From positions 2,904,334 through 2,968,333 of the forward strand of contig OY365810.1 in NCBI GenBank assembly GCA_959347315.1: DNA of 64,000 bases, written 5' to 3'. Made by a program: the position numbers and the translations under genes. The first letter of the stretch is position 1; every line of letters begins with the position of its first letter. The DNA is from Bimastos eiseni (Eukaryota; Annelida; Clitellata; Crassiclitellata; Lumbricidae). Under the pieces are notes generated by a model. That model saw only the letters and a program-made list of their open reading frames with translations. It ran no database searches and was not told the origin of the DNA. Positions 22,642-57,944 of the stretch are shown piece by piece.

Positions 22642-22705
22642 ATGGAAAATCCTTTTGGAATTGCAGTTCTTCTTGGAGGCGTTTTCCTTTTTCCTTCATG
22701 CTTTG
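22642..22705 (+). CDS. LR1 exon 1: signal peptide
   Basis: The ATG at 22642 opens MENPFGIAVLLGGVFLFPSC, a signal peptide, and ends at donor G|GTATGG in phase 1, matching the lectin exon at 23429. A minimal upstream frame (ATG GAC TGA at 22632-22640) ends one base before this start and could lower initiation. LR1 is the only member of this receptor family on the plus strand and the only one with a convincing first exon. Confidence 0.72.
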
Positions 22706-23428
22706 GTATGGTTCTTGTTTTGGTTTATTTTTGAAATATGAACATAGTCGGCGTACTTCTTTGGTCGTTGGTAATTATGGTGATATTTTAGCTTCCATTG
22801 CTTCAAAAACTTTCAAATAACAAGTAGGGGTCTATTATTTAAATTAATTTTTATTATTATAATTATTGCCATCATTCTTATTGTTGTTGTTGGGGGTGGT
22901 GTTGGTGTTGTTTTTATTTTACATTTGGTGCACCGATTATTGCTGTTAATTTTGTTACTCAGAGAAAGCATAACGTCTTCTGATCAAGAGTGCAGTGCAT
23001 GCATTGCTGGATATCTCACGCAGCAAATCATACTACGCATAATTGTTACGATATAAGAATCATTTTGGCCTACTCTAACTCATCTATGTGATATATCGGT
23101 TGTATTTTTTCTTTTAATAGCATTAAAAGGCTCGTTAATAAGCTTTTGTTTTTAACATATTTGTCTAATTATAGGTTACGCATACGTAAGCTTACGTGTA
23201 ATTACGTCATACGAATGTCAGCATTCCCACATATTATATGAGTTTGCGCACTAAATAATTCATGCATAATTAAAGATATGCATGATTAAACATAGTCTGA
23301 AACAATGCAGAATATATTGGGTAGATTGCTCTCTTTATTATAGTATAGAATAGAGCTTCTTCCGAGAGGTTTACAGTAATTTTTTCAATTGCTGTAAAAT
23401 GCCTTTACTCTCTGGTAACGCTGTACAG

Positions 23429-23719
23429 CTACTAAAAGCGAAATTTGCGTCGAAGAGACATTCAACGCTACTTGTCCATCTGACACCTTCATCCACATCC
23501 AAAGCGCCCTCTACGGTCGAATGCGTAGCAGTCGATGCATAGACTTTGACAACAGAGAACTGAATTGCCGTGCAAATGTTCAACCGTATCTTGAACGCCT
23601 TTGTAACGGACGTAATGGATGCGATATCAAAGCTTCAAATAATACGTTGCGATCTGCTGAGGGTTCTTGCGCGATGCATCTAAAGCCTTATCTGGAAGTT
23701 TTCTACGAATGCCTTCCAG
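23429..23719 (+). CDS. LR1 exon 2: SUEL/rhamnose-binding-lectin-like domain (type I)
   Basis: 291 bp, phase 1-1, acceptor CGCTGTACAG, donor GTAAAT. It encodes a full SUEL-like domain of 97 residues: SEICVEETFNATC, the sugar-binding signature ALYGRMRSSRC, then LERLCNGRNGC and, at the end, PYLEVFYEC. The YGR motif typical of this lectin family is kept. The usual D-P-C near the end is replaced (EGSC), so binding specificity may differ. The exon has the same length and phase as the type I lectin exons of LR2-LR4. Confidence 0.85.
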
Positions 23720-23944
23720 GTAAATACACACAATACTAATTATGATGTTTTCCCAACATACTGGATATAGATAGAGTCGTCTATTGTGATCACGATCTTT
23801 CAAATTGGACAGCAGTGAGCTCTGTATGCATAATTTATATATACATTTCCATGTATGCTGTTCTGCATTAATGCATGATTATAATGTATTGCCAATATGA
23901 TAGATTTCAGTTACGAGTCATTTTAGGCATTTTTCATAGGCCGT

Positions 23945-24420
23945 GTGACTGTACGATCGAGTCAGTCACGCGGAACGTGCACGCCCTCTGTAGCCAAATG
24001 CTTACCTCTCGGTGGAGAGCAGCTGTTGTTGAAGTGACCGCGACCGCTTGTCACAGGTGGCTATTCAATCGACCGACCAACACAGGACGAATTTTGTTTC
24101 TACGTCTTCCTCGTGCCTCGACGAATATCCGGACGTGCGTCACCATACACCAGCGAGGGACTACTCGTCTACTTTGTATTATGTCTGCGAATCATTTTCA
24201 ACAGTTGTTGCTCAACACCACTCGGCCAAGATATTCTGAATATCTATACCACCAGTCAGCTATCTACGGGAATCTGTTGGATGGTTGCATGCTTGTACGT
24301 GGGCCCACCCTGGCGACTCTATCAGCTTTCTGTGCTAACATCATTTTGGCCAGCGCAGAGAGTGCCTCTGTGTAGATTACTTGAAGAGGCGCTAAATCAA
24401 GTTTCATTGATTCAAGATTC
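23945..24420 (+). mobile_element. LINE 3' end fragment in LR1 intron (CR1/L2-like)
   Basis: Ends with 'agagtgcctctgtgtagatt' and 'acttgaagaggcgctaaatc', the tail found at 2.46, 28.0 and 54.4 kb. The preceding block ('cagtcagctatctacgggaa') matches the fragment at 54.05-54.37 kb. The frames are broken and the left edge is uncertain. Confidence 0.55.
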
Positions 24421-25478
24421 AAGTTCACATGTAGTCTACGTATGTTACAGAAGCAATTGTTCCAATCAGTGTTCACAAAGAGCAAAACAAGATAAAGAGC
24501 AACATGAATTGAAACAATGATTGTTAGAGGGCAAAAGGAAAAGAAAAAAACCCTTAGAGAGTCCGTTTACGAATTCGCCTTTTACAAATGACTGGAAATA
24601 TCGTTTGCACGTCAGTCACACAACTTCACGAGGCAACTAATCATTTGCGTCACCCTCTCCTAACCCTGCCCAGGCGGGGTCTTGGGATTTGTGCAAATCC
24701 GATGAGTTTTCACATGGGGTGGGGTACAGTACGTGGTTTATGATTTTAAATTTCATATTTAATGTCCTCTGCATAGAAAATGGTCAAATTTTGTCACAAA
24801 TCGAGATAATTTTGGTGCTTTTATTAGAAATTCTACTTGAAATATCCGAAGAATTCATCAGCATAGAATTTACTCCATTAGGCACAAATGCTTAACATGC
24901 TTGAATTGCGCGGACCCCCGCGGAGCTTACGACACTCTCCCATGCCCGCTAGTCGTTCTGGGCTTCGAAGCTCTGGCGACGCCACTGCAACTAATTATTA
25001 AAACTTCAACATTCTTTAAGTGTACATGAATTTCATGCATTTATATAGGTATGTGTGTATGCATTAAGCCACCTAACATTGCATCATGTTAATATATAGG
25101 CCTACGTTTAATTAAAAATGCGGAACTACTAACTAACTGATTTCAATTGCAGGAATTTAGGACATTCGTAAATGTTTGCAGGACAGAGTTAAACAGAACA
25201 GCGCAAGTGCAGCGATAACTGTTCCACTTCCAATTGCCATCAAAATTATTATGATAATGCCTTTTATAAATTATGTTAATTAAATACAGTCTGCGGAATA
25301 TAACAGTACAACTTGTCGGTGTTATTTTAGTACTTTGAAGTAAATGCACCTGAAAAATATGTTCGTATTATTTCAAGCTGAATTCCTCACTAACATTTGT
25401 ACTATTTTTAATTGAGAACATTATTCTCGTTTGATTGGAGAAAATAAAAATTACGTTGCATTTGCTATGATCGAGCAG
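24421..25478. other. LR1 intron
   Basis: No exon was recognised between the lectin and TM exons. In particular no CCP exon of the kind found in LR2-LR4 was seen. Parts may be paralogous to the LR4 intron near 54.4-54.7 kb. Confidence 0.4.
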
Positions 25479-25628
25479 ATGGTTGTGTGCATTGTCTTAC
25501 GAACGGTGACCAAAGTTTCGCAAAGACACTGACGATTGCTAAAACATGCACGACGGTGGCCTTGGTCATCTTTCTGGTAACTGTCGCAATGATCATCTAT
25601 AAACAACGGCAGAGATATCAACAAAGAA
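25479..25628 (+). CDS. LR1 exon 3: transmembrane segment
   Basis: 150 bp, phase 1-1, acceptor GATCGAGCAG, donor GTAATA. It encodes a short ectodomain stub, the helix TTVALVIFLVTVAMIIYK and a basic stop-transfer stretch (QRQRYQQR). The helix is similar to the LR4 TM exon (VTLIIFLAAMALFIHRLR). The 18 bases spanning its acceptor side recur with one mismatch at 25663-25680. Confidence 0.78.
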
Positions 25629-27022
25629 GTAATAATGACTGGATGTCTTCCCTAGCGAATGATGGCTGTGTGCATTGTATAACAGTTAGTTAGTTAAGAT
25701 TGGTTTTGCATTACTATATAATTTAACTTCTCATTACATTATAAAAATATGCGCTCATTGGAACTATGCTAGTGTATATCATGCTGTCATGAGTGGTCCT
25801 GCGCGAGGATATTCCTTACTCCTTAATGCCTTCCCTTGTAACCTTACGTTGTTCAATGGTTACTAATCTTCTATTTAATATGTTTGTTATGTTACACCTT
25901 CACTGTCAATTGATTTGATTTGGTTACAATACCATTATCGTTATCGTTATTGTTAAGATAACAATAACTTGTACTTGACATTAAGCATCACATCGAACAT
26001 CACCACATTTTCTAGGCAATCATGTGCTTGTCATTATTCCCACACATGCCAATGTAGAATCCATATTTTCACATCTGACGAGTTTGGTAGCATCTTCAGA
26101 TTCACCAAATGCCCTTTAAAATATGGTCGACATGAGAAACCAGGACAAAGCCAATGTTATTGTGGTATAATGCATTATCAAATCCTTTCACTTCCTTTTT
26201 GAGCAATCCCGCCTTCGTCTGTATACAGTAATTGTTATTGTCACATTAGCATGCTAGACAAATAGAAAATGACATACCAGACCCTAAGTTTAAAAAATAT
26301 GTTTTCCACTTAAACTCCTGCGCTTCTTGTCACGGTGGGAGGCAGCGAGAAGATGTCGGATGACCCCGATTACTCAGCACACCTGTATCGAACAATTCAA
26401 CTGATGACTAGGGTTGATGGAACCAGCCGCCGACAGACACCTGAGCTGAAGCCAATAGGGATGTGGATGTTACGACAAGGTTACGACTGGCCAGAACCGG
26501 TCATGACCGACTTCAGCAGACGGGCATAAACCCCAGTGGTCGATCACGGAGGAATTCCGCGGCAATCATGACCCCGTGTTTTCAGACACAATACCTATTT
26601 GCTGCTTGATGATAGGAATTCAAAGGCTATCTAATTATGGAAAAGGATTCATGCATTTATACATGTACCTTTTAAAACCGTGCATTAGGATCCTTCGGCC
26701 AATGTGAGAGCTATGAATACGATCTACGGGAACTGCCGTTTCGTCAACGTTTATAATCAACGTTATCGCAGATGTATATTTTAATTTATTTTACTATTAA
26801 AGCTTTTTTAATCATCACATTGGTTCGAAGCGAACAGTCTGGAGGAGCCCATCCTTGATATACAAACAAGGAGGGAAGTCCATGGCTCTTCTTAATATGT
26901 CTTTTGGCATTTGTTTGTACGTCAAGCGAGATAGCTTGTATTCGGCTTTTACTTCATCCTTAATTACTAATATTTTAATCATTTGTTAATATGGCTGTTT
27001 AAATCTGTCTTTCTTGACTTAG
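25629..27022. other. LR1 last intron
   Basis: Nothing assignable. A 64-codon frame at 26335-26529 ends in a stop, has no supporting splice sites in the LR1 phase and matches no family I recognise. Confidence 0.4.
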
Positions 27023-27321
27023 CGAGCTTCTCGTGCTACGGCGACATTGGTGAAGTCCAGCCAATGGAATGCACTCGCTATGAACAAACGTCAACTGAGG
27101 TTGGTCCAAATCCTCCTCCAAGGTGCATTCCAGTACCGCAGTCTGAACAAGTCCCCTCTCCCCTCAATCAACATCGCCGTTTACCACCTGCTTCCAACAT
27201 CTACATGGAGTTACTTCCAGAGTATGAACTGATAGATCAGCCCACAACTGGTGCCACCATCAATGTTCCAGTGAACACGCGCAGTATTAATGTCACATTG
27301 AACATTACAGTTGATAAATGA
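27023..27321 (+). CDS. LR1 exon 4: cytoplasmic tail with tyrosine motifs
   Basis: Acceptor TTCTTGACTTAG, phase 1 in, stop TGA at 27319. The tail is ~99 residues: a conserved start (DIGEVQPME), a proline-rich middle (GPNPPPRCIPVPQ), the tyrosine motif NIYMELLPEYELI and a conserved C-terminus (ATINVPVN, then VTLNITVD). Homologous tails occur in LR3 (43982-44223) and LR4 (51994-52322). The shared Y-x-E-L-L suggests an SH2 docking site. The -2 residue here is Asn, so this copy does not strictly meet the ITIM consensus. Confidence 0.8.
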
Positions 27322-28328: not shown

Positions 28329-28480
28329 TCAACCATCGGTGTCACATAGACGCTCACAGATAACAACTTTGTAAAGTCCATTAAAGAAAATCTCTTCGTT
28401 GCAGTTGATTTCATCAAGTTTTGAGTATTTCTTCGTAGAGCAAAATGCGTGAAACCATGTGACATTTTTACTGCGAAAAG
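28329..28480 (-). pseudogene. LU gene C: terminal exon with frameshift at the last cysteine
   Basis: Homologous to the LU-B terminal exon: acceptor TTGCTTTACAG, then NVTWFHAFCSTKK, DEINCNEEIFF and ICERLCDTDG. One T is missing where LU-B has TGT (Cys), giving a TGA immediately after DTDG. The next bases would read N-K-P-F-stop in the original frame, which supports a single-base deletion. The final Cys-Asn of the LU fold is lost, so the protein would lack a core disulfide. Confidence 0.7.
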
Positions 28481-33672: not shown

Positions 33673-33875
33673 TTATGGACCCGTGTCTCTCACGTGGCTG
33701 TAAGATCCATAGGTTCCATCGGCCTGTTGGCCGTCTTCATATTTGTATTCATATTCGTATTCGTACTCATATTCGTATTCGGAAGCACATGTGGCGATTT
33801 GTCGTCTTAGGTGACTCTCTGGGTAATCACCTTCGTCAACACCTACTCGTCTTCGTGTTGCATTGACTTTCTTTC
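33673..33875 (-). CDS. LR2 terminal exon: replaced cytoplasmic tail with (EY)n repeat
   Basis: Acceptor AACAAACCAG, phase 1 in, TAA at 33673. It encodes ~67 residues: basic KKVNATRRR, DEGDYPESH, then SEYEYEYEYEYEYKYEDG and GTYGSYSHVRDTGP. The distance to the TM exon equals that in LR3, but the sequence is unrelated to the LR1/LR3/LR4 tails. The (Glu-Tyr)n is encoded by a TATTCG-type hexamer microsatellite. The result is an acidic, multi-tyrosine tail without the Y-x-E-L-L motif. The assignment rests on position, phase and frame. Confidence 0.5.
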
Positions 33876-34555
33876 CTGGTTTGTTTAAAATCAAAAATGC
33901 TAACAACGTCAAACTTAATACCTTGATGATGAACATCATTCTTGTGACACAATGGGGCCTACTTAAATGTATCAATATGAAAAAAATTACTTTTAAAACT
34001 ATAGTTATTCATACCAAAGGGACCAGCAATAAATTATGAAAATGATGATGTCTGATTCACACAGTAGGAGTATTGTGTTGTTTCAACATTCGCAAAGTGA
34101 AAATGTGGATTATGACTCATATGTGTGACTTGAATCGTTACCTTATGTGAGTACACTGAAAATCTCGTCTTTCAGAAATTGCCTGTTGAGCATCCAATCA
34201 AAAACTTTATAATATTCTCATTGTGTATCATTGTTTTCAGACTTTTTCGCTGGTATGAAAAACTCCAGATCAGCCATGTGGTCCATTTCAATATGAGGCG
34301 TAGGTTTCCGAAGATATTTTTGAGAAATAGTTAAAAGATCATCATGACGATAACCAGAGTTCAATCGCTGTTTCGCATTATGTTAATCAGTTTCACAAAT
34401 TGTGGAGTTTCCTGAGTCTCCGAATACTAAGGTACAATTGATGAAGACAAGGTGGCAAGTCTTATTTTACACAGAAATGTAAATTTCCCATGTTAACAAT
34501 AGAGTGACATTTTTAGCTAGATAAAAGTAAGTTAAAGTCATTTAAAAATTCTTGC

Positions 34556-34651
34556 CTTTCGATTTCTTCTGAATTCGCTTAAGGCAAACGATGACAGCGA
34601 TGATTGCGGACAACATGAAGACACCAGCAGCAGCACTGAATATAATGAGTT
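34556..34651 (-). CDS. LR2 transmembrane exon
   Basis: 96 bp, phase 1-1, acceptor AGACCTGTTAG. It encodes LIIFSAAAGVFMLSAIIAVI and the basic end CLKRIQKKSK. The donor reads AG|GCAAGA, a GC rather than GT donor, whereas the otherwise near-identical LR3 exon has GTAGGT. GC donors are used rarely but normally. If this one is not used, the frame would stop three codons further on and the receptor would be nearly tailless. Confidence 0.72.
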
Positions 34652-35229
34652 CTAACAGGTCTAGACATCAAACACACAGCAGAGAAATTACTTTCAACGA
34701 TCATTCTGGAATAAATAAAGGACATGTACCGTCTTCGCCGTTTTTCTGTCTGGAAAACTAATAACAAAACGGCGGAGTCATGTGGTAGAGTGTAGACAAT
34801 ACCGGGTATTGAGCTGGTTACGGCTCGGTCCTTGGTGCGACGTCGGATGATCAACTATCACTATTTGTATTAGACACCTGCGCAAAAGAGCTTACTAATG
34901 ACAACTACCCTTGGACTTTTAATGCAATTTGCAAAATTTTAAATTCATTTTTGTGATTTATCAGTGAAAACATATGAATGAGGACCTATTTATGTCGTAA
35001 TAATGATCGGTGATTACTTTTGCGTCAATGTATGGTGTTACAAGGTATCAACTAAACAATGTCACACCACTGATCTGGCTATAATAGGTCAATATCAAGA
35101 AGATCAGTCCATGGCTAAGCAATTTGAAAGCGGAAAGTTTTATGTAGATAATCAAATGATGCTAGAAGTGTCACAAGGTCACTAATGAAGACCTATCACT
35201 GAAACATTAGGCTACGCGTAATAACCTGG

Positions 35230-35393
35230 GAGAAATCGAAATCACACACTATTATTTCATAGGTCATTAGCTATTATTTTTACTATTATTATTATTATTT
35301 ATTATTATCATTATTATTATTATTACTATTTTTACAATTATTATTACTTTTACAATTATTATTATTATTATTATTACTACTATTATTTTTACA

Positions 35394-35440
<47 letters not shown>

Positions 35441-35480
35441 TACTATTATTATTTTTATTACTATTATTATTATTATTATT
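35230..35480. repeat. (ATT)n tract
   Basis: Long imperfect ATT/TTA trinucleotide repeat in the LR2 CCP-TM intron. The LR3 intron has the same tract, shorter, at 45630-45705. The poly-Ile frames through it are not genes. Confidence 0.9.
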
Positions 35481-35647
35481 TCCACATCAGATACATTTCT
35501 GAAAAAACAACCGCCACAATTCAATTTGCTTTGCAGGAGGAACGCTCGCGAAACCTTGAGTCCAGTTGATGAATTGGCCAATTTGTGATATTTCGACATG
35601 ACTCGAATGTTGAATTATTTTAAAATAAACGTGCACCACATATTTAC

Positions 35648-35806
35648 CTTGTTTACGACATAGTTGTGCTGGATCCATGTTCCACTTCCTATCATTACAG
35701 CGCAGTCTTTGCGTGGATGATTTATTGTCGCACTTAACATCATAGCCATCGACTGCCTTTTGCATTGTTGCATCCTTAGGTAGAGTGAATGTCGGACAAG
35801 GAAACT
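35648..35806 (-). CDS. LR2 CCP/sushi exon
   Basis: 159 bp, phase 1-1, acceptor CTGTTGATTCAG, donor GTAAAT. It encodes a short CCP-like module with four cysteines and the conserved Trp: EFPCPTFTLP, YDVKC, QRLRCNDRKWN and AQLCRKQ. CCP modules mediate protein-protein contacts and often form stalks. It lies between lectin and TM exons, as does its near-identical counterpart in LR3 (45873-46031). Confidence 0.78.
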
Positions 35807-36410
35807 CTGAATCAACAGACAGAGAAACATTTATTAACGAAAAGATTTATTGTTTTAATTGCACACAGTTCAATAAAATTCATCGTTCTGTTGGCTGTTG
35901 CAAAAACGACTGAAACGCAGGAACAATTGCTGAAAATGTGAGCATTACAAGCAAATACAAAGTACCGGAGCACGCACTTAGATTATACTTAAATTAAAAA
36001 GAATTGCCACCCGAATAAACTCTGGAGCCAAGTTATATATAGATATAGATAATTCTTTTTGGCTTCGTTTGTGCTTCAAATGAAAGTACTATATTCGTAA
36101 AGCTATTGGTTCCAGTGCAATAAACTCATTCAAACAATCAACATAAAAAAAGATACTTGCAACAGTCTTTGGTGCAAATGGTCTCTGCACCATTCAACAC
36201 ACATAAAACTGTGTTACAATGACGTTATAGTTCTTTCGGGCGGTAAATAGAAGTCGCTACACTAAGTGATTTTATGTAGCCTTTTATTATGCTGTCTGCA
36301 CACATAAATTCATGATAACCGACGTTAAAATAAAAATAATCGCTCACAATTAATTACAACGCCAAAGTGAGCTTACATTGATACATTTTTACGAAGTCTT
36401 TGGTTCTTAC

Positions 36411-36701
36411 CTTGAACACATGAATAGAAAACTTCCAGATACGGTTCTAGATTTGGCTGACAGGAACCTTTGACATTTTTCAGATTATTATTGGACGCTT
36501 TTATACTGCACTCAACACGTCCTTCACAAAGACTTTGAAGAACCGGCTGAACATTTGCGTAGCAATTCAGGTCACTTTTGTCAAAATCTATGCATCGACT
36601 GCTACGCATTCGACCGTAGAGAGCGCTTTGAATGAAGATAAGAGTTCCAGTTTGGCATGTGGCTTTGAAAGTATCTTGAATGCAGACTTCGCTACTGGTC
36701 A
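36411..36701 (-). CDS. LR2 SUEL-like lectin exon 3 (membrane-proximal)
   Basis: 291 bp, phase 1-1, acceptor ATTCGATCTAG, donor GTAAGA. Type I SUEL-like domain: SEVCIQDTFKATC, ALYGRMRSSRC, LQSLCEGRVECSIK and PYLEVFYSC. It is one of three tandem copies in LR2. Its downstream (3') flank matches that of the single LR3 exon, so this copy sits at the original position of the module's 3' side. Confidence 0.83.
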
Positions 36702-36883
36702 CTAGATCGAATAATTACAGATGTTTAGCAAAGGCTTATGGTTCAGTTTCCTTGTTTTATGAAACTTTGTAAAACTTTAAGTAACATACGTGAAATTCTC
36801 ATAGGAGATGCGGTAGTTAGCAATAATAATTATTACATAAATATTGCCGTTTCCGTTGGATAATTACATAGACAATTATAATA

Positions 36884-37130
36884 AAGTTAATGATGATTAT
36901 AATGATCATTGTGACGATGATATATACAATATTGATGATAATGATTATGCTTATGAGAATGGTGATGATGATAATAATGATGATGATGATGATGATGATG
37001 ATATGATGCTGCTGCTGCTGATGATGATGATGACAACGACGACGACGTTGACGACGTTGACGAAGTTGACGACGACGACCACGATGACGATGAAGATGAC
37101 GATGATGAGGATGATAGTGATGGTGAAAAA
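36884..37130. repeat. (GAT)n/(GAC)n triplet tract
   Basis: Imperfect GAT, GCT and GAC trinucleotide repeats in the LR2 intron, with a shorter paralogous tract at 37890-38035. Asp- or His-rich frames here are compositional artefacts. Confidence 0.9.
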
Positions 37131-43981: not shown

Positions 43982-44223
43982 TCATTGGCAAGTTGACGGG
44001 GCACTATTTGTGGGCTCAACTTTCGGCTCCTCTTCAGAGAGCAGTTCCAGGTAGGTGTGAGGCTCGGGAAGGAAACGGCGATTTTTGCTGTTTGGTGGGC
44101 TGGGCGACTCATAAAACGGTTCTGCCGTTGGAACGTTTCTTAGACGACGCGTTGTTGAGCCCGGAGGTGCATTTTTCACTTGAACGGTGGGTTCCATAGG
44201 CTGAACTTCACCAATGGAGCTCG
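43982..44223 (-). CDS. LR3 terminal exon: cytoplasmic tail truncated by frameshift
   Basis: Acceptor CATGAAACTAG, phase 1 in, TGA at 43982. It encodes SSIGEVQPMEPT, a Pro/Ser-rich middle and HTYLELLSEEEP, homologous to the LR1 and LR4 tails. After PTNSA the frame leaves the family: one base is missing compared with LR1. Reading one base over continues in the conserved style (VNLPMNSH, then INVTFNITLD) beyond the stop. The product therefore ends early and loses the conserved C-terminal ~20 residues but keeps the Y-x-E-L-L motif. Confidence 0.7.
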
Positions 44224-44908
44224 CTAGTTTCATGAAAAACAAATCTCAAACGGATGGTAACAATTTATAATATTGGCAATAGGGAACAATAAAAAGCAGG
44301 ACAGGTTAGAATGATTCTTACTGTCCAGAAACTTCCTCTCGGGCTCAACATGATAATAATAACTTTCAAAAACGGAAGTTTCTCTTATCTGATCAGCAAC
44401 GTATCATGAAAATATTATTTCATGATGTCACACATTGGGAATATCGTGTTATTTCAACATTTGCTAAGTTAAAATGTATACGTCAAATGTGAATCTTCTC
44501 ATCTTTCAGATACAGTTTGTCGGACATCCTATCAAAATGCCATGATACCGGTATTCAAATTGTACACCAATATAGATCATTACTTTCACACTTTAATGCT
44601 GGTCATTGTGATATGAATAAATTCATGTGTTCGCCATGTGGTCCATTTTCATATGATACAGGGGTCTCCAAAGATATTTTGATAAAGAGTTGAAATTTCA
44701 CTTAAGAGATGACCAGGGTTCAATTGCAGCGTCGAGAACGGTGATTCGTCCTGCAAAGTAAAGAGTTTCATGGGTCTCTGTATCACCCATACATCTAAAC
44801 AATATGGAAAGTCTAGTTTTAGACTGAAGTTTACATTTCACATGTGGAGAATAAAGTCAAATATGTGGCTGCATGAAAGTAAGTCAAAATCATTGAAAAT
44901 TGACCTAC

Positions 44909-45004
44909 CGTTCGATTTCTTCTGAATTCGTCTTAGGCAAACGATGACAGCGATGATTGCGGTCAACACGAAGACACCAGCAGCAGCACTGAATATAATG
45001 AGTT
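44909..45004 (-). CDS. LR3 transmembrane exon
   Basis: 96 bp, phase 1-1, acceptor AGACCTGTTAG, donor GTAGGT. The helix is nearly identical to LR2 (LIIFSAAAGVFVLTAIIAVI) followed by CLRRIQKKSN. Its normal GT donor contrasts with the GC donor of LR2. Confidence 0.8.
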
Positions 45005-45649
45005 CTAACAGGTCTAGACATCAAACACACAGCAGAGAAATTACTTTCAACGATCATTCTGGAATAAATAAAGGACATGTACCGTCTTCGCCGTTTTGCT
45101 GTCTGGAAAAGCAATAACAAAACGGCGGAGTCATGTTGCAGAGTGTAGACAATACCGGGTATTGAGCTGGTTACGGCTCGGTCCTTGGTGCGACGTCGGA
45201 TGATCAACTATCACTATTTGTATTAGACACCTGCGCAAAAGAGCTTATTAATGACAACTACCATTGGACTTTTAATGCAATTTGCAAAATTTTAAATTCA
45301 TTTTTGTGATTTATCAGTGAAAACATATGAATGAGGACCTATTTATGTCGTAATAATGATCGGTGATTACTTTTGCGTCAATGTATGGTGTACAAGGTAT
45401 CAACTAAATAATGTCACACCACTGATCTGGCTATAATAGGTCAATATCAAGAAGATCAGTCCATGGCTAAGCAATTTGAAAGCGGAAAGTTTTATGTAGA
45501 TAATCAAATGATGCTAGAAGTGTCACAAGGTCACTAATGAAGACCTATCACTGAAACATTATGCTACGCGTAATAATCTGGGAGAAATCTAAATCACACA
45601 CTATTATTTCATAGGTCATTAGCTATTTTTATTACAATTATTATTATTA

Positions 45650-45706
<57 letters not shown>

Positions 45707-45872
45707 CCACATCAGATACTATTCTGAAAAAACAACAGCCACAATTCAATTTGCTTTACAGGAGGAACGCTCGCGAAACCTTGAGATCAGTTGATGAACT
45801 TGCCAATTTGTGACATTTCGACATGACTCGAATGTTGAATTATTTTTCAATAAACGTGCACCACATATTTAC

Positions 45873-46031
45873 CTTGTTTACGACATAGCTGTGTTGGATC
45901 CATGTTCCACTTCCTATCATTACAGCGCAGTCTTTGCGTGGATGATTTATTGTCGCACCTAACATTGTAGCCATTGTCTGCCTTTTGCATTGTTGCATCC
46001 TTAGGTAGAGTGAATGTCGGACAAGGAAACT
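45873..46031 (-). CDS. LR3 CCP/sushi exon
   Basis: 159 bp, phase 1-1, acceptor CTGTTGATTCAG, donor GTAAAT. Four cysteines and the Trp are conserved (EFPCPTFTLP, YNVRC, QRLRCNDRKWN, TQLCRKQ). It differs from the LR2 module at only a few residues. Confidence 0.8.
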
Positions 46032-46633
46032 CTGAATCAACAGACAGAGAAACATTTATTAATGAAAAGATTTATTGTTTTAATTGCACACAGTTGAATA
46101 AAATTCATCGTTCTGTTGGCTGTTGCAAAAACGACTGAAACGCAGGAACAATTGCTGAAAATGTGAGCATTACAAGCAAATACAAAGTACCGGAGCACGC
46201 ACTTAAATTGGACTTAAATTAAAAAGGATTGCTACCCGAATAAACTCTGGAGTTATATATAGATATAGATAATTCTTTTTGGCTTCGTTTGTGCTTCAAA
46301 TGAAAGTACTATATTCGTAAAGCTATTGGTTCCAGTGCAATAAACTCAATCAAACAATCAACATAAAAAAGAGACTTGCGACAGTCTTTAGTGCTAATGG
46401 GATCTGCACCATTCAACACACATAAAACTGTGTTACAATGACGTTATAGTTCTTTCGGGAGGTAAGTAGAAGTCGCTACACTAAGTGATTTCATGTAGCC
46501 TTTTATTATGCTGTCTACAAACATAAATTCATGATAACCAACAGACGTTAAAATAAAAATAATCGCTCACAATTAATTTCAACGCCAAAGTGAGCCTACA
46601 TTGATACATTTTTACTGAGTCTTTGGTTCTTAC

Positions 46634-46924
46634 CTGGAACACATGTATAGAAAACTTCCAGATACGGTTTTAGATTTGGCTGACAGGAACCTTTGACATT
46701 TTTCAGATTATTATCGAACCCTTTTATACTGCACTCAACACTTCCGTTACAAAGTCTTTGAAGAACCGGCTGAACATTTGCGTAGCAATCCAGGTCACTT
46801 TTGTCAAAATCTATACATCGACTGCTACGCATTCGACCGTAGACGGCGCTTTGAATGAAGATCACATTTCCAGTTTGGCATGTGGCATTGAAAGTATCTT
46901 GAATGCAGACTTCGCTGCTCTTCG
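46634..46924 (-). CDS. LR3 SUEL-like lectin exon (type I)
   Basis: 291 bp, phase 1-1, acceptor TTTTATTCAG, donor GTAAGA. SEVCIQDTFNATC, AVYGRMRSSRC, LQRLCNGSVECSIK and PYLEVFYTC. Its 5' flank matches LR2 exon 38361-38651 while its 3' flank matches LR2 exon 36411-36701. This is as expected for the single-copy state before the LR2 triplication, or for a contraction. Confidence 0.85.
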
Positions 46925-47422
46925 CTGAATAAAACAATTTGCGTTTAGCAATGACTTAAAGTGTTGCTAGTTTCCTAATTTAATATAGATTAATGAAACT
47001 TTGTAAATATACATTTACGATGCTGAGTAGGCCAAGGTGCAATATCTTAAATAATTTTCGTTGTGAATATTAAAGTTCATAACAATGATCCTAATTGTAG
47101 TTGTAATTGTGTTGCAATTATGATTAAGACCATATGTAGCAATAATATAAAGACTGCAGTATATGCAGGATAATGACCCATATATTACTAATGATGCTGA
47201 CGCTGCTGCTAATAATAATGATAATACTTGTTCTAGAACAAATACCTCCGGACAATTACCTCAGTACAAACTACCCCCGGACAATTCCTCCGCCCGTATC
47301 AGTTGTGTGTGCTATATAGAAACAACTTTGCGGCGCTATTGGCAAATGATATTTAATAAAAGTTTTCTGATAGTTTCACTTCTCTCTAATGACTAGTGTA
47401 CGTCAAATTATACGAATCTTAC

Positions 47423-47719
47423 TATTGGTGCACTGGTAAGAAATATCTAGAGACAGCATCCGGTCGTCAAGACATTTTGGCTTCTTTGCCGTAATATAAC
47501 TGCTGGAAACTTTCAGCTGAATGCTTTGTTTTAGTCCAAAATGAGTTTGAAGTTCATGTCTTATATCAGCGTTTGAGCAATTCGGTTTGTTCTCTGTTAA
47601 ATTGTAGCATTTGCTGTTGGTGTGCATTCGACCGAAGAATGCACTTTCGATGACAACGATTTCGCCAACAGCACAAGATGCGTTGACTGTTTCCCATAAG
47701 CAAACTTCTTTAGCAGTAG
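47423..47719 (-). CDS. LR3 SUEL-like lectin exon (type II)
   Basis: 297 bp, phase 1-1, acceptor TTTGTACAG, donor GTAAGA. A divergent lectin module: EVCLWETVNASC, SAFFGRMHTNSKC, NCSNADIRHEL, KKPKCLDDRMLSLDISYQC. The first signature reads FGR instead of YGR, and the middle third differs from type I modules. It is closely related to the LR4 type II exon. The end of the exon is set by the phase 1 donor, as in LR4. Confidence 0.78.
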
Positions 47720-48419
47720 CTGTACAAACTGCAAACGTGAAATTAGAACCAAAGAGATATTACTGAAGTATTTCTGCCTGAATCTTATTAACCTAACTCG
47801 ACATGATAGCATGATGACCCAATGTGAAAAAATATGACGTGCACACGATATAAAATTATTTTATTTCTATGTGGTTTGATAAACACCAATTAGTGGGAAC
47901 ACCAATCTGGAAAGCAAAACAGTTCCTAAGTAGGCTACATTGGGTAAAAAAGTGACAGTTATTACCTGGACGACAGCATTTGCGACAACACAATAGTTGC
48001 ATCTCTATACTCTACCGATATAAACGTTGATTACTTAGGGTTCTGGGAGAAAGTTGAATGTTTTCTTTCATCAAAACGGAAAGTGGTCTAATATTTTGTT
48101 GGACCACCGAGGATCACCGACTGCGTTATTCTATCACTGGCCTCTCCTTACCCCTCTATAGATTTGCCACTATCGACATTCATGCTAAAAATAAGAATTA
48201 TACCAATAACCAAATTGACACGATTCGAACATAGTAATTTATGCATTCCCAAATAAGTAACATGATAGGAAACTTCCCTAACTAAGAGCATTTACAAGTA
48301 TTCTAATAATTATCACAACAGCGACAACTACTACTGCAAATGTAACTACTGCTACTAATTATACTAATAGCACTACCGACCGTACCACTGCCCCTACGCC
48401 CACTGCTATTAATTACTCG
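47720..48419. other. LR3 upstream sequence
   Basis: No exon recognised; the LR3 signal peptide exon was not found here. Around 48.06-48.12 kb, 'gtggtctaatattttgttgg' resembles a degenerate transposon end, but nothing pairs with it. Confidence 0.35.
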
Positions 48420-49310
48420 GAAGAAATGTATTCTTACCACAATATACGGAGCAGAGTGAGAAAACGAGGAAGGTTTTCAACAGATGCATGCCTTCTTGAC
48501 CTGGCTCCTGAAGTGTTGTAACATAGCAAAAAGAGATTGACTGTATTATAGTTGCGCCTTAGTTAGTAGTGAACTTAGTGCGTTATCCAGCCTGGCTTCA
48601 TTTCCCTCAACATCCTCTAACATTTGGTAATCTAATGTTAATTCGCATTAGGCAGATAGTGGTGAATAGGAAACTGGAAAAAATAGCGTATTTCAACGTT
48701 AATAAAGAAAGTTTGCCTATGGTTTTAGAACAACAGTATTGTATGCCAACCGTTTTCAGCTCTGCCTGCCATATGTGTGCATGCGGTGACTATAATCTAC
48801 AATGTATATGTAAGTGTTATGGGTAGCTTTAGCCCCCCAAAATGATTACATACTACGTTAATCCTGCAAATGCAATAACATACGTGGAATTTTAATATGA
48901 TTCGAAAATTGATATAATTTATTTGTAATGAGCCGACTTTTCGTTTTCGCCTCTAACGAATTCATCATCTTGAGAAAGTCCTGCGTAAATTTTTCCCATA
49001 CAGATTCTAATTGATGAGTATAATATACAGCGTAACTGCCTCAATTCCACGTGGCCCAAAGAATTGGTGTGTGGGTAGAATTTTGAATAAGTCATTTATA
49101 ACCAACGATAACCACAGAAAATGTCCTCGCTACGTGCACAAGATGAAACAGAAAGACCAACTTATTAACAGGTGATTTCAAGTAAGAATTCGCAACACGA
49201 TAATACCACTAAGTCACTTTCTGTGTCTGGTCAGAATATGTGCAGGTGTAAACCATGAAGAACTTGCGTGTTTTGAAGAGGAAAGCTATTGTGATGGCAA
49301 GGGGTGCGGG
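48420..49310. repeat. segmental duplication, copy upstream of LR3
   Basis: Diverged counterpart of 39690-41650 without the RTE insertion. Contains no gene I can support. Confidence 0.65.
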
Positions 49311-51993: not shown

Positions 51994-52322
51994 TTACACT
52001 TTTGTATCATCGTCGACTGTAATGTTCACCTTGAAATTAATATTGCGCAGATTCACTGGTACGCTGATAGTGGCTACACTTGATGGCGACTTATCCGGCT
52101 CATCTTTGTGAAGCAGTTCTGTGTAGATGCTAGGATCAGGTGGTAAACGACGACGCTGGTTGATGGGCTCATACAAATCTGCGGTGATGGGAATGTTCAA
52201 AGGAGGACGAGTAGAAGAAGGAGGAGGAGGAGGAGGACTTGGAGCAAACATAGGAACATTGTTTCCATAGCGAGTGGATTTTGTTTCCTGGATTTCATCA
52301 ATGTCGACGTAGCAGGAGCTTG
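51994..52322 (-). CDS. LR4 terminal exon: cytoplasmic tail with ITIM-fitting tyrosine
   Basis: Acceptor GTCAACTTAG, phase 1 in, TAA at 51994. About 108 residues: SSCYVDIDEIQETKS, a proline run (APSPPPPPPSS), RRRLPPDPSIYTELLHKDEP and the conserved end ATISVPVN, INFKVNITVDD. The SIYTEL hexapeptide fits the (S/I/V/L)-x-Y-x-x-(I/V/L) inhibitory-motif consensus exactly, and the polyproline could bind SH3 domains. Both functions are predictions from motif alone. Confidence 0.8.
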
Positions 52323-52660
52323 CTAAGTTGACGATAAACAAGTCATAACAACCACATTAACAACTATAACTAATAACGCTCATGTATACAAATTACAAGT
52401 AACGACTAAATCCAATTTAGCCAATTAAGTCGATCACGTTCTAATCTCGTCTGATCAATTTCAATCTATTCATATCTTGACAAATTTGATCGAGATGTCT
52501 TGATTTAATCTAGAATCATGTGATTGAAATCCAATTCTTTCGAGCCTGGTCTTATCCAGTACGATATGGAGAATCATGATCTGATAATTTTAAAACCAAG
52601 TGAAGAAGAGGAACACGTAGGCAGTCCAGAACCTCGATAAGAGTGGCGGGTAATTGGTAT

Positions 52661-53454
52661 TAGGGGTCTGCGGGTATACACCGTACCCGCGGGTAACCCG
52701 TACCCGAGCCGTACCCGCGGGGACGGTTGGGTACTGGTACGCATTTTACGGGTCGGGTACGGATAGACCAATTACGGGTACGGGTATACCCGGTTTTACC
52801 CGTGTCAACGGCATGTTTTGGGGTTACAATGTCACCGTTAAGGAAATAGATAAATCTTGCATCATTAAAGATGTAATTAATATTATAGAATACTGGCACA
52901 TTCGAAATCAAGGTGCTATATTCCTGTATGTATTGCCTCCCTGCTACTTTGTATGCATTATAATCGCTGTTTTCATCATTCCTCCTCCTATTCCTCCTCC
53001 TCCTCTTTCCCCTCCTCCTACCTCCGATCTTCTCTTTTTTCCTTCTGCTTCTCCTTCTGCCCCTGCCCATTCTGCTGACTCTCCTCTCCCTCCCCTCCAT
53101 CACTTTCCCCTCCTCCTCTTCTTCTTTTCCTTTCTTCTCCTCCACTTCCTTCTTCTTCCTCTGCTTCCGCCACCCTAGCTACCACCATGGCTGCTGTCAC
53201 TGATGCTGATGTTGTTGATGCTACCATTACGACAACAGCATAATGCTCAGTAAATTGTGATCCTACTAGCCTGGCAGGCAGCAAGACCATGACAAGGTAT
53301 GCTAATGACGTCATGGGTACGGGGTATACCCGGGGTACGGGTCGGGTCGGGTACGGGTCGGGTAGGAATTTTGAGTACGGGTCGGGTACGGGTACGGGTA
53401 ACGTGTCCGGGGTACAGGTACGGGTCGGAAAAATGCTATACCCGCAGACCTTTA
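52661..53454. mobile_element. 794-bp hAT-like nonautonomous element
   Basis: Ends TAGGGGTCTGCGGGTATA and, reversed, TAAAGGTCTGCGGGTATA, flanked by the exact 8-bp repeat ATTGGTAT (52653-52660 and 53455-53462). Subterminal regions on both sides are made of GGGTAC/CGGGTA repeats, and the centre has a long C/T-rich tract (52979-53170). There is no transposase. It lies in the LR4 intron between the TM and tail exons. Confidence 0.85.
52979..53170. repeat. polypyrimidine (CCT/CTT)n tract
   Basis: C/T-only stretch inside the hAT-like element. Pro/Ser/Leu-rich and Glu/Arg-rich frames through it are artefacts. Confidence 0.85.
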
Positions 53455-54049
53455 ATTGGTATGTAGGCCTAGTGCTTCCTCTTCTATTTTTCGGCAATTG
53501 ATGTTGGTAGTTGGCCAGTCTTCTCCATCACCGTCTGATCTTATTATTGGCATCCGACGGTACGGATGCCACTGTAGCTGCCATTTAGCTGTTTAAATGG
53601 AACAGGTGGAACTGAAAGCTTGAAAAAGTGTCAACTAGTAGTTAAATTCAGCCGGATCTGAGATCCGTAACCTCGTATTTGAGATCGGCCACAACACCCG
53701 TGAGTTCCACCACCCAATGGATGAGTTCGACCACCTAAATAATTATATGTTTTCTTTAAAACATCAACAATATGCACCTTGTTTCACACATGCTATGCCT
53801 CTCCGAATGCCAAATAGCGATGATATCGGTTATAGATTGAAGATTCGAAACTTATCCTGACTTCAGCTCAAGTTACAATTTTTTTACTACTTGGAGATCC
53901 AGCATCCCTGGAATCCTGGATGAGAAATGCGGTTGCTGGTGTTAACCCTAACTGGCATTTGAGCAAACGACTTCTAAGTTCATTATTCAGTTGATGACCA
54001 GTAGGTAGTCCTAATAATTATCTAAATCAGTCCACAGACTTCCAATCGC

Positions 54050-54372
54050 ATCCAATCCAGCATACTCTCGGTTTGGCGACGAATTGCAAAGCTGTTGTTC
54101 AACTCGATAGATGGTAAGCGAAAACATGCACAGAGTACCTACTACGTTATTGGTAATGTGTGTGTGCAACAGTGGTATACTAGACATCTGAACATCTATG
54201 CCATCTGTCAGCTGTCGACGGGAATCCGTTGGTTGGTTCCACACTTGTGCGTGGTCCACCACTAGTGACTCATCGGCTTGATGTTTTGCTAACTGATGAA
54301 AAATATTCTTCAGGAATGACACTTAACATCCTAGGTAGATTTGTTGAAGAGGCGCTCAATTAAGTTTTGTTG
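54050..54372 (+). mobile_element. LINE 3' end fragment in LR4 intron
   Basis: Matches the fragment in the LR1 intron (24.19-24.42 kb) including 'tcagctgtcgacgggaatcc' and ends 'ttgaagaggcgctcaattaa'. The coding frame is destroyed. Confidence 0.5.
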
Positions 54373-55091
54373 ACAGATTGATAAGATAGACTCTTATAGA
54401 GCGATGGTCGGACCGTTGAAGATGAAAGCGAAATAAATATCAGTTGTCAGTTTGTGTTCCATTAGATACATTTCCAATGTACTGAGTTTGTTTTGCTTTT
54501 TCCTTGTCATTGATATATAGTCGATGGGACAATTTACGCATTGGTAAAAATAAACAGAAACAATTAGATGATTGGCCTTGATGCCATAAACTTGAAACAT
54601 AATGATGATTAGGTATGATAGATTACTTTCAGCAGTGGTTTCGGTTTAATTACAGCGTGTGGTAACAAATAATATTAGCCTCACCCTCCTCCTGTATCCA
54701 GGGACTGGAAAGATTACTCTTAGTGGTAGGCTATGATTATATATTTTACATAATATATATGATATAATCATATTATATATATATTAGTAATGGGCCATAA
54801 ATGATATACTATATTTTGCAATTATCTTCGTAGCCTAAGTATTATTTTACATTAGGCCTACTATGCCTAATGGATAAATATTATATCAATATATTATACT
54901 AACTATAATAATGTGCAATATAATCTATTGAACTGGATATGTGTTCAATAATTATCAGAAGTTGGGTCATATATGGAATCACTCTGGGCATGGTGTCAGC
55001 TTGTCATCTTGGCGAGCGGGGTTCAATATACTTTCAAAGCAAATTACACGCACATTCATTTGTTTAATTATGTAAGAAACTGAGTTCTTAC

Positions 55092-55214
55092 TTTGTTGTC
55101 GATTTTTCAGTCGAAGTCTGTGGATGAACAATGCCATGGCTGCCAGAAAGATGATCAAAGTCACTGTCGCACTTGACCCAGTAATCATTATTATCTTTGT
55201 CAAACGTGGGTATC
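55092..55214 (-). CDS. LR4 transmembrane exon
   Basis: 123 bp, phase 1-1, acceptor CCCATGACAG, donor GTAAGA. Begins YPRLTKIIMITGSSATVTLI, continues IFLAAMALFIH, then basic RLRLKNRQQ. It resembles the LR1 TM exon more than the LR2/LR3 pair. Confidence 0.8.
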
Positions 55215-55527
55215 CTGTCATGGGTCAATACAGACGAACTGTCACTAAATATTAGTAACCGTAAGTAATTTAAAAGTGTTCGAGTCAATGAGCAAAATGC
55301 TTGAAATAAGATCGAAAACGGCAGCTGGAAGTAGTAACCTTATAAATGTATCTCGGAACCAGTCATACAGAGGGAATCTGCATTAATCGAATCAAATAAA
55401 TTGAATATCACATTGCAGGACTATAGTATCGAAAACTTCAGGTATACACAAACCGCTTTCCTGATGTTTTGCATGGATAACATTATTAGAGATGTTCAAG
55501 TCATGTGTAATAACGTTCTGGAATTAC

Positions 55528-55755
55528 CATCTTGGTTCTCTTCTGTTATAAAAGGCATTTCAACTGTGGATTCTGCCGAGCTTTCTGTAGGATTTGAAGT
55601 CGCACAGGTTCTCGAAGTATCAAATATCCATGTCCCATTGACACAGTGAACCTCCCAACTGATACTTCTGTCACTCGAGCAAGAAAGACGATGACCGTTG
55701 AAAATAACTTCCATAGCGACATTCTCAGGTGGAATAAATTCAACGCACCAAATGT
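55528..55755 (-). CDS. LR4 CCP/sushi exon 2 with Ser/Thr-rich stalk
   Basis: 228 bp, phase 1-1, acceptor TTATCACTAG, donor GTAATT. CCP module with DIWCVEF, HRLSCSSDR, SWEVHCVNGTW and SRTCATS. About 25 residues rich in Ser, Thr and Glu follow (NPTESSAESTVEMPF) and likely form an O-glycosylated stalk next to the membrane. Confidence 0.8.
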
Positions 55756-56285
55756 CTAGTGATAACATAAAATTGGCATCTATTAATTTTATTAATGTAA
55801 AAGAATTCATTTGAATTATTTTGTGTCAGATATCAGGAATAGGTTAAAATAATCAAGTCGATGCTTTAATACCAAGTTTGACCTTGACTTAAGAAAGGCA
55901 GTTATCGGGATACATTGCCTTCCAAACACACTTCATGAAAATATTTATTAAACATTATATAACTTGTATGAAATGCTTTTGCATAAACTTTGCAGCCTTT
56001 TCGATTGAGCATCACCTTAAAAATCTGGCATCAGCTGTCTATTACTTGGGACTTTACAAACAAAGGTTCGTATAAATTTTCGCGAAAGAAGCGCATAATG
56101 ACATCGATATTGTGTTTATAAACAGATAACATCCACGGCCTGATGCATGAAGGAACGTTTCAATTGTTCTTGCTATAAAGAAAACGAGTGAAGAGTTTGA
56201 GGATTAATGCGATCGGTATTGCATTTTATGAACAATTACTAATTACAATTGCGAATCCATTGTGAGGATCTATTACACCGATTAC

Positions 56286-56480
56286 CCTTATGGTCGGAGG
56301 AAGTTTCGACTGTCGGTGTGGAAATTGAGCAGCTTCGTGGAACATCTGTAACCCATTTATCATTAACACAATGAACCTCCCAACTGACGTTTCTGTCATT
56401 GGTACAAGAAAGACTATGACCACCGGTAATGTTCTCTATCGCTACATCCGCAGGTGGATTGTAGTTAGCACATCCCATGT
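56286..56480 (-). CDS. LR4 CCP/sushi exon 1
   Basis: 195 bp, phase 1-1, acceptor TTGACCATTAG, donor GTAATC. MGCANYNPP, HSLSCTNDR, SWEVHCVNDKW and PRSCSIS give the four cysteines and the Trp of a short CCP. It is closely related to the following LR4 CCP exon (shared SWEVHCVN), so the pair arose by exon duplication. Confidence 0.8.
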
Positions 56481-57053
56481 CTAATGGTCAAGATAAAATA
56501 TAACTGAAGTCATTTTATAATAGCAAGCAGCTTATACGATCATGTGAAAATGTCTCTAAAAGAGAATAAGGTTATATTGTTCAACTTGATGGTCAAAAGA
56601 ACAAACATTAATGCAGGCCATTAGTTTTAGCTAATACAACAATTATTTAGGTAGGGCAGCAAACACAACAAACTTTCTAAACACTAGACCAGCAATAAAA
56701 ATTAATTATTGGCAAACATCTCAGTTACCCGTCCTTTTTTATTTTGCTTTTGTGGACTGGCAAGAAACATGCCCTGAGATTATGCAGCAAAGACATAGCA
56801 GCCGACATGTACCTCAATAAAAAAAACAGAGACGGTAGAAACCTACACTAATAAGTATGAACTAGGTTATGCTTATTATTAATTATTATTTTACGTAAAG
56901 TCATAATAATGATCATTACAGAAACGGACACACGCCAATTTCAAATACATAATTAGGCCATATGTAAGAAATCATTATCCATAACAGAGGGCCATTCAAT
57001 GTACAGCAATGCGTAGAGGTATTTTTGAACGAGTCTAACATTAGGCTACCTAC

Positions 57054-57344
57054 CATGAACACAGGCATAGAAAACCTCCAGATACGGCCACGGACTCCGA
57101 CATCTGCGATTGTAAGCGTTTCTCAACGCCTCATCACTCACTTTGATATTGCATTCAATTCGTCCGTTGCATAGACTTTCCAGAAATGACAACACATCTG
57201 CGTAGCAATTAATATCTCTTTTGTCAAAGTATAAGCATCGACTGCTACTAATTCGACCGTAGAGAGCGCTCTGGATGACAATTGCGGTTCCAGGTGGACA
57301 AGTAGCTCTGAATGTTTCATGAATGCACGCTTCACTTATTTTTG
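57054..57344 (-). CDS. LR4 SUEL-like lectin exon (type I)
   Basis: 291 bp, phase 1-1, acceptor CTGATACAG, donor GTAGGT. SEACIHETFRATC, ALYGRISSSRC, LESLCNGRIECNIK and PYLEVFYAC. YGR is kept. It is more diverged from LR2/LR3 than those are from each other, so LR4 is an older copy. Confidence 0.83.
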
Positions 57345-57653
57345 CTGTATCAGGAAATAAATAATGCGAATGCACTTTATTTTTATACTTAACTTGTTGA
57401 CACGTTTTTTCAGACCAAATAATAATGTCAATGGAGATTGGCATTTTAAAAAAAATATTTTCCGCTGGATTTATTTTGAGTTGTATTTTCTTCAAAATGC
57501 GCCGCACAAAATTAAAATACTTGACAATGGCTGCAGTTATATGTTGAATAAAAGCATGCTATCAGATTTGGCGTGGAAAGGAGTAGGTCTATTTCGTGTT
57601 TTGAAGGGGTATCATATACGGCACGACTTCATATCGAATGATTTCTGACTTAC

Positions 57654-57944
57654 GCTTTGTACACTGATATGTAATATCTAGTGACGGCATCCGTCCTTCG
57701 AGACATTTTGGCGTATTTGTTGTAAAAAATGGATTGGAAAGTTTGAAAGAAATGCTTTGACGAACTTGAAATTCCATTTGAATTTCAAATCGAATATCCG
57801 TAGAACAATTCGATTCGTTCTCTGTAGAGTTGTAGCATCTACTGTTGAGCATTCGACCGTAGAATGCACTTTCGATGAAAACGACTTCGCCATCAGAACA
57901 AGATGCATTGAAGGTGCTCCATAAACACACTTCTTCCGCTGCAT
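57654..57944 (-). CDS. LR4 SUEL-like lectin exon (type II)
   Basis: 291 bp, phase 1-1, acceptor TTTCTACAG, donor GTAAGT. EEVCLWSTFNASC, SAFYGRMLNSRC, NCSTDIRFEIQ, TPKCLEGRMPSLDITYQC. Pairs with the type II module of LR3 but keeps YGR where LR3 has FGR. Order in LR4: type II, type I, CCP, CCP, TM, tail. Confidence 0.82.

Follow-up and report, generated by a model that had tools for sequence, protein, structure and literature searches.

A cluster of predicted single-pass SUEL-lectin receptors with apparently exchanged cytoplasmic tails in a probable annelid genome

The stretch of DNA analysed here, a window of 64,000 nucleotides (C5:2904334-2968333, in an assembly of 660 Mb and 118 contigs), contains four related genes, LR1 to LR4, and two further copies, A and B, were modelled just left of it. 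We consider it rather probable that these genes encode annelid type I receptors with a lectin ectodomain, that their cytoplasmic tails have been exchanged via phase-1 introns and that the tail of copy B was taken from a neighbouring receptor gene of immunoglobulin (Ig) type, named here gene C. An immune role would be plausible. An earlier note on this DNA had described the family from the letters alone, and the evolution of the copies, with tail exchange between near-identical ectodomains, is more interesting than that note stated.

Results and discussion

Six lectin-receptor gene models

The six open copies (A, B and LR1-LR4) lie within ~116 kb (C5:2847716-2963926), amid Ig-type receptor exons. 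LR1-LR4 were modelled from a six-frame reading and a listing of splice sites; all are complete in the window and are genuine gene models, each with an open, phase-consistent, predicted spliced reading. All six models follow one plan, with a signal-peptide exon, one or more SUEL exons, a single transmembrane (TM) exon and a single tail exon, and are predicted to be type I single-pass proteins. Phase 1 holds at all exon boundaries, whose acceptors are AG and whose donors are GT apart from a single GC donor after the TM exon of LR2. Secreted lectins are ruled out by the TM exon present in every model, and the latrophilin type of adhesion G protein-coupled receptor (GPCR), with seven TM helices, found no backing in the six models, which gave no GPCR Pfam match at E<=1 and have one TM exon each.

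The four copies of the earlier note, LR1 on the plus strand and LR2-LR4 on the minus strand, with one to three SUEL domains and one TM helix, were recovered by the spliced models and by Pfam SUEL matches, and its multigene family of single-pass SUEL proteins varying in domain number and tail is borne out by the six predicted models. The end that it gave for the cluster, 57944, has to be moved, the start of LR4 being 59593. Single-pass SUEL receptors are in themselves not novel, the accessible parts of two papers already describing one, EVA-1 (PMC4133157, PMC2430599).

Tail exchange between near-identical copies

Every exon of A, from the signal peptide to the TM exon, is 94-98% identical at the DNA level to its counterpart in B, and the tail exons of the two copies are non-homologous. 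Similarly, the exons common to LR2 and LR3 are 88-96% identical and the tails are unrelated. In both pairs the similarity stops within the intron between the TM and tail exons. For A and B the break was located, as a 12-kb unit (C5:2848695-2860716) is repeated in tandem as 2860724-2873368, with 96.8% identity over 11,490 aligned bases and a 7-base filler at the junction. The duplication thus has both its edges inside phase-1 TM-tail introns, on the left that of copy A and on the right that of gene C. The simplest reading is that copy B is a lectin ectodomain joined by the duplication junction to a copy of the tail of the neighbouring Ig-type receptor. Compared to the tail of C, that of B lacks an internal piece, in frame and flanked by short direct repeats. 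The LR2/LR3 pattern may have arisen by duplication or by gene conversion.

In the mechanism that we propose, SUEL and CCP-like modules would form the ectodomain, one 3' exon would encode the whole tail and the exons would be spliced as modelled. With phase 1 common to all the boundaries, breakage within the TM-tail intron would swap the tail in frame, and the 12-kb tandem duplication would in this way have placed the lectin ectodomain of B before the tail of the Ig-type receptor. The receptors would bind protein or cell-surface ligands and not free rhamnose, their tyrosine motifs would recruit SH2 proteins or endocytic adaptors, and the same ligand would give different outputs through different tails, in the style of paired receptors.

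The units of B and C might also be two haplotypes of one region assembled in tandem, and 96.8% identity might be allelic in a polymorphic invertebrate. This is highly unlikely, as the junction is contiguous through its 7-base filler, with no Ns, the identity along the unit is uneven (94 to 99.9%), the B tail carries the in-frame deletion between short direct repeats, and the pattern recurs in LR2/LR3, where that duplication is absent. It is also quite unlikely that each gene has alternative tail exons, with tails that differ as isoforms from a single locus instead of as fixed differences between genes. All tail exons do share the same intron phase, and the accessible text on the oligomorphic FcoR loci of Botryllus reports that splicing there exchanges an immunoreceptor tyrosine-based inhibitory motif (ITIM) for a hemITAM (PMC12065747), but a tblastn search for tails in the 214-kb region at E<=5 gave, besides the known tails, a best match of E 0.003 that is proline-rich and lies outside the lectin genes.

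Tail types and their motifs

Three tail types were distinguished: type I in LR1, LR3 and LR4, type II in LR2 and A, and type III in B and gene C. The type I tail is proline-rich and carries Y-x-E-L-L; relative to LR1 its identity is 51% in LR4 and 44% in LR3, the latter over two joined frames, as a frame break costs LR3 ~20 final residues. The homologous Y-x-E-L-L tail noticed earlier in three copies is present in LR1, LR3 and LR4; LR2 has a tail as well, of another type (33673-33875). A search of the 660-Mb genome with the LR1 tail (E<=10) gave four matches, the three copies and one stop-containing sequence on contig C12, with LR3 itself at only E 0.08, and remote type I copies could escape such a search. 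With the A tail at the same threshold, type II was found only in A and LR2; the most distant known copy scored E 0.001, and here also remote relatives could escape. In these searches tails I and II occurred solely in lectin copies. For tail III, 21 matches passed E<=10, of which 17 also passed E<=0.001; the whole set falls on C5, in the interval 0.4-9.7 Mb. One of these relatives, when read, had 101/187 aligned residues in common with C (54%) and kept 9 of 12 tyrosines.

The tails contain YMEL, YLEL and YTEL. Since Y-x-E-L also fits the YxxPhi endocytosis signal, this motif in tail I would be equally compatible with an SH2 reading and an endocytic one. The strict SH3 class I motif was found, among type I tails, in LR4 only, with a class II match in LR1. 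Strict ITIM-like matches occur in LR1 and LR4 among type I tails and also in C, and a match to the spacing of the activating counterpart (ITAM) occurs in LR4 and C; neither was found in A, B, LR2 or LR3. Of the SH2/SH3-type tails that had been proposed, the tyrosines and prolines are therefore there, but the strict SH3 class I and ITIM-like motifs are confined among the type I copies to LR4, and to LR1 and LR4, respectively. Weak matches to Pfam SIT in A and B (E 0.0026 and 0.1) were below the cut-off, fell mainly on the TM helix and were not used.

The genes could instead encode endocytic or scavenger receptors, with Y-x-E-L as an AP-2-binding YxxPhi signal and tails that govern the uptake route and not signalling. 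The three Y-x-E-L variants fit YxxPhi and tail I is proline-rich, but tails II and III have many tyrosines outside YxxPhi, including YxxM in B and C and the acidic YxEI type in A, and we regard this alternative as unlikely.

Gene C and the surroundings of tail III

Scored against the profiles of domains 1 (V-set) and 2 of a nearby Ig array, the two ectodomain exons of gene C reached 20.9 and 27.7 bits; when each was shuffled 500 times, the highest scores were 4.9 and 9.4 bits. One copy of the array exceeds the Pfam V-set cut-off. The first exon itself lies below the Pfam Ig cut-offs; its best match in PDB had E 0.0047, and its best 60 matches were nearly all Ig proteins. Gene C is labelled a putative Ig-type receptor because its own exons are weakly matched or unmatched in Pfam and PDB and the array profiles match. 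Its TM exon has phase-1 sites; its signal exon was not located in our reading.

A genome search with the second ectodomain exon of gene C gave at least 142 matches at E<=1 (150 candidates scored), out of which the 116 at E<=0.001 were used. This family, of at least 116 members, is found among the matches listed on C5 (102), on C2 (13) and once elsewhere. The C2 members lie at 23.36-23.65 Mb, and about 20 family members are then followed by tail III. Twenty of the 21 tail III exons lie 1.3-12.1 kb downstream of a second-domain Ig exon of this family on the same strand, 19 of them within 7.4 kb; the exception is B, whose tail lies 1.6 kb behind a SUEL exon. By random expectation 2.7% of 20,000 positions fall within 13 kb downstream of a gene-C-type Ig exon on the same strand, a limit chosen after the positions had been seen, with uniform random positions that ignore clustering.

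The 294 kb around the window hold Ly6-like exons and eight copies of V-set type, of which one contains a stop and one lies in the window itself. By analogy, we tentatively suggest that the start of C5 could be a protostome immune-receptor complex with a logic like that of the vertebrate leukocyte receptor and natural killer (NK) complexes. Ig-type, lectin-type and Ly6-like genes would stand together, tyrosine-motif tails would move from one receptor family to another, and new pairs with the same ectodomain and different outputs would continually arise from tandem duplication through phase-1 introns.

Further V-set-type Ig copies form an array at C5:2771403-2838546 on the minus strand (loci L009, L019-L021, L028, L030 and L031). 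Propeller-like open reading frames (ORFs) lie downstream of three of its copies, at C5:2833632-2834570, 2821562-2822470 and 2811836-2812762. Two are preceded by a TM and a coiled-coil-like ORF, and Pfam support was below the cut-off for the two propeller pieces scanned.

Ectodomain modules and possible ligands

Pfam SUEL (PF02140) matched above its curated cut-off in all six models, and a genome search with this profile independently recovered six SUEL exons of the window. LR1 has one SUEL domain and no CCP-like module, LR2 three and one, LR3 two and one, and LR4 two and two; two SUEL domains are also found in A and B, making four of the six models, and CCP-like exons are present in all models except LR1 (5/6). 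A broken SUEL fragment, in two opposite pieces, is located at C5:2890417-2890844.

The CCP identity of the modules is weak. None of the four CCP-like exons scanned (both of LR4 and those of LR2 and B) had a Pfam sushi match at E<=10; a CCP-like exon of LR4 gave a weak sushi fold match, and that of LR2 shows a four-cysteine pattern with Gly and Trp. The zero to two CCPs counted previously fit in number, but the modules are invisible to Pfam sushi. A profile of the local CCP-like exons found its six source exons and one weak match (C5:2979805-2980098, E 1.2e-4), ~6 kb away from a further SUEL exon that lies right of the window; it found no match in LR1.

In the 12 SUEL domains, numbered as latrophilin-1, the sugar contacts Glu42 and Lys120 have no equivalent (0/12 each) and Tyr63 is kept in 11/12, two of the 12 rows including a residue assigned by eye (Val in LR1, Leu in the divergent SUEL domain, SUELa, of LR3). 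According to the accessible part of PMC2430599, Glu42 and Lys120 of latrophilin-1 contact rhamnose, and mutating them abolishes or strongly reduces binding. Because these residues are replaced in 12/12 domains, canonical-site sugar binding is unlikely on sequence grounds; glycan recognition through that site is not supported, and the result speaks against a reading of rhamnose-like sugars there by these SUEL domains. SUEL-type domains of EVA-1 are able to bind proteins, as described in the accessible text of PMC4133157, and this, with the absence of both equivalents, would favour a protein or cell-surface ligand over free rhamnose. The proteins resemble the latrophilin-1 RBL domain and the rhamnose-binding lectins in having a SUEL domain by sequence, and differ from them in being predicted membrane-anchored, non-GPCR proteins without the two contacts. 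In an annelid, Olavius, SUEL lectins were listed among pattern-recognition proteins in the accessible part of a transcriptome study (PMC5117596), where nothing is said of their tails.

Coding constraint and points against the proposed mechanism

Exons of distant copies were compared seven times (LR1/LR4 SUEL and tail, LR3/LR4 SUELa and tail, A/LR4 SUELa, A/LR3 SUEL and A/LR2 tail), and in 7/7 the third codon position was the most variable. The ratio of non-synonymous to synonymous substitution rates (dN/dS) was 0.19-0.57 in six, dS being saturated in one. At the codon level, these comparisons show purifying selection on the predicted exons of the distant copies.

Several observations weigh against the proposed mechanism. 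Phase, order and paralogues are the grounds on which the models join lectin exons to tail exons; LR2 reaches its tail only via the GC donor, the LR3 tail is shortened by its frame break, and the ectodomains of LR2 and LR3 are unequal in domain number. Either copy, LR2 or LR3, may be in decay or simply a variant. Recent pairs are weakly constrained (dN/dS 0.13-1.93 over 12 rows, given with no significance test); the highest value, for the A/B SUEL exons, rests on 16 differences, and the dN/dS comparisons gave no demonstration of positive selection. Relative to 3% Tyr, tyrosines are clearly enriched in tail II alone (P 3e-5 and 4e-3), marginally in tail III (P 0.02 and 0.03) and not in tail I (P 0.35-0.70), and the 9/12 tyrosine conservation in tail III is not significant (hypergeometric P 0.11). 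No tail pair showed a clean ITIM versus ITAM contrast in the motif scan. The second ectodomain exon of gene C, which served as the query for mapping the family, is not recognised as Ig by Pfam or by PDB sequences, and the Ig match of the first in Pfam is below the cut-off. Finally, the duplication could be false in the assembly, although a check for N runs found no Ns across the unit.

Comparison with known receptor systems

EVA-1-like adhesion or guidance co-receptors, whose SUEL domains would bind protein partners and whose tails would recruit adaptors in development and outside immunity, are an unlikely alternative. The FAM176 domain (PF14851), which we take to be carried by EVA1C, has no match at E<=1 in the six models, and the recent duplication, the tail exchange and the many nearby Ig-type exons are unlike a conserved guidance gene. 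In its favour, the accessible text of PMC2430599 states that the C-terminal domain of EVA1C (C21orf63) likewise lacks the Glu and Lys contacts, as do all 12 domains here, and that sugar-contact residues are partly lost in EVA-1 and EVA1C. The likeness extends to a single-pass protein with a SUEL ectodomain, EVA-1 having two SUEL domains and a needed cytoplasmic tail in the accessible parts of PMC4133157 and PMC2430599. The worm genes differ in forming a multigene cluster and in their CCP-like modules and exchanged tails, besides the missing FAM176 match.

Receptor pairs whose ectodomains match while their tails differ are known chiefly from the Ig and C-type lectin families of vertebrates. The Xenopus CEACAM pairs, as presented in the accessible text of PMC5112662, have near-identical ectodomains, different tails and recombination among clustered genes, and gene conversion keeps the ligand-binding exons of vertebrate paired receptors alike. 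Near-identical ectodomains on different tails are found in A/B, and in LR2/LR3 in the common exons only. In contrast to the vertebrate pairs, the worm ectodomain is lectin-type and not Ig, the animal is a protostome, ITIM/ITAM opposition is not among the features seen, the pairs also share TM exons and introns, and one tail comes from another receptor family. The Botryllus FcoR genes resemble the worm genes as an invertebrate type I receptor cluster with a sushi module, YxxI/L/V tails and an ITIM/hemITAM swap; in the accessible text of PMC12065747 their ectodomain is Ig plus sushi, with no SUEL domain named, and the swap is based on splicing and not on gene fusion as in the worm.

The worm cluster thus differs, as far as the models go, in its SUEL ectodomain and in having apparently captured, through one duplication, a tail that belongs to another receptor family. 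In the literature covered (titles, starts of abstracts, few subscription papers), no paper was recognised as describing a family of this kind, in which clustered single-pass SUEL receptors have exchanged their tails. A protein homologue search with LR3 scored 1749 candidates, none at E<=0.001, which carries little weight as the animal content of the database is uncertain. A protostome SUEL family doing likewise, in which one swap is known to the base, would illustrate how a single duplication can rewire the output of a receptor, and the annelid locus would offer a setting for testing tail function.

Exon structure of LR1-LR4

LR1 (plus strand, 22642-27321) begins with a signal-peptide exon (22642-22705) with an ATG, a hydrophobic core and a phase-1 GT donor, 73% identical in DNA to the signal exon of LR4. 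Its SUEL exon (23429-23719; Pfam SUEL E 4.9e-12) has splice sites and is followed by a TM exon (25479-25628), in which a hydrophobic segment precedes basic residues (phase 1-1), and by the type I tail exon (27023-27321), placed by the spliced model and tail homology.

LR2 (minus strand, 33673-39764) has a signal-peptide exon placed by the spliced model (39716-39764) and three SUEL exons (38361-38651, 37462-37752 and 36411-36701), each found by the PF02140 genome search, Pfam and splice sites. The CCP-like exon (35648-35806) was assigned from its Cys, Gly and Trp pattern and the weak fold match of its LR4 homologue, the TM exon with the GC donor (34556-34660) from splice sites and 94% DNA identity to that of LR3, and the type II tail exon (33673-33875) from a tblastn match to the copy A tail (E 1.4e-11).

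LR3 (minus strand, 43982-48489) comprises a signal-peptide exon from the spliced model (48438-48489), SUELa (47423-47719; splice sites, with an LR4 homologue that matches a solved rhamnose-binding lectin), a SUEL exon (46634-46924; PF02140 genome search, Pfam and splice sites), a CCP-like exon (45873-46031; splice sites and Cys pattern), a TM exon (44909-45013; splice sites) and the shortened type I tail exon (43982-44223; tail homology and splice sites).

The corresponding exons of LR4 (minus strand, 51994-59593) are the signal-peptide exon (59530-59593; spliced model), SUELa (57654-57944; E 2.8e-6 to the solved rhamnose-binding lectin, and splice sites), the SUEL exon (57054-57344; PF02140 genome search, Pfam and splice sites), CCP-like exons 1 (56286-56480; splice sites and Cys pattern) and 2 (55528-55755), the TM exon (55092-55214; splice sites) and the type I tail exon (51994-52322; tail homology and splice sites).

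Host

The earlier note had supposed an echinoderm. This is contradicted by the mitochondrial contig C118, whose reading fits genetic code table 5 and neither the echinoderm nor the ascidian code: in cox1, AAA stands at Lys, ATA at Met and AGA at Ser positions, which we assume to be conserved. The gene order on one strand of its first 10 kb is nad4L-nad4-rrnL-nad1-nad3-nad2-cox1-cox2-cox3, with nad2 assigned by position and the other identities partly by Pfam; rrnS was not detected on this contig. We take this order to be the annelid ground pattern, and code and order together point to an annelid host. Cox1 had 35 matches in total, one on C118; nuclear copies lie on C4, C5, C6, C15, C16 and other contigs, and six of them span the full profile.

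Other features of the window

A candidate Ig receptor kinase, its parts co-oriented, occupies positions 3063-12648 on the minus strand, with Ig-like exons (10467-10880 and 12145-12648), a TM-like ORF (9030-9302) and two protein kinase pieces, 5861-6340 (Pfam Pkinase E 7.5e-16) and 3063-3413 (by eye), in which HRN replaces HRD. Ly6/uPAR-like cysteine-rich exons are present on the minus strand at 16031-16174, 18437-18571, 19518-19664 and 28332-28454; they recur across the cluster, some with stops, and share by eye a CDTDGCN-like ending, and one joined pair had no Pfam match at E<=1. An ORF at 40319-40603 on the plus strand resembles, by eye, a reverse transcriptase fragment of the long interspersed nuclear element (LINE) kind. 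A RING finger exon at 63457-63882 on the minus strand (Pfam zf-RING_UBOX E 1.6e-9) belongs to another gene.

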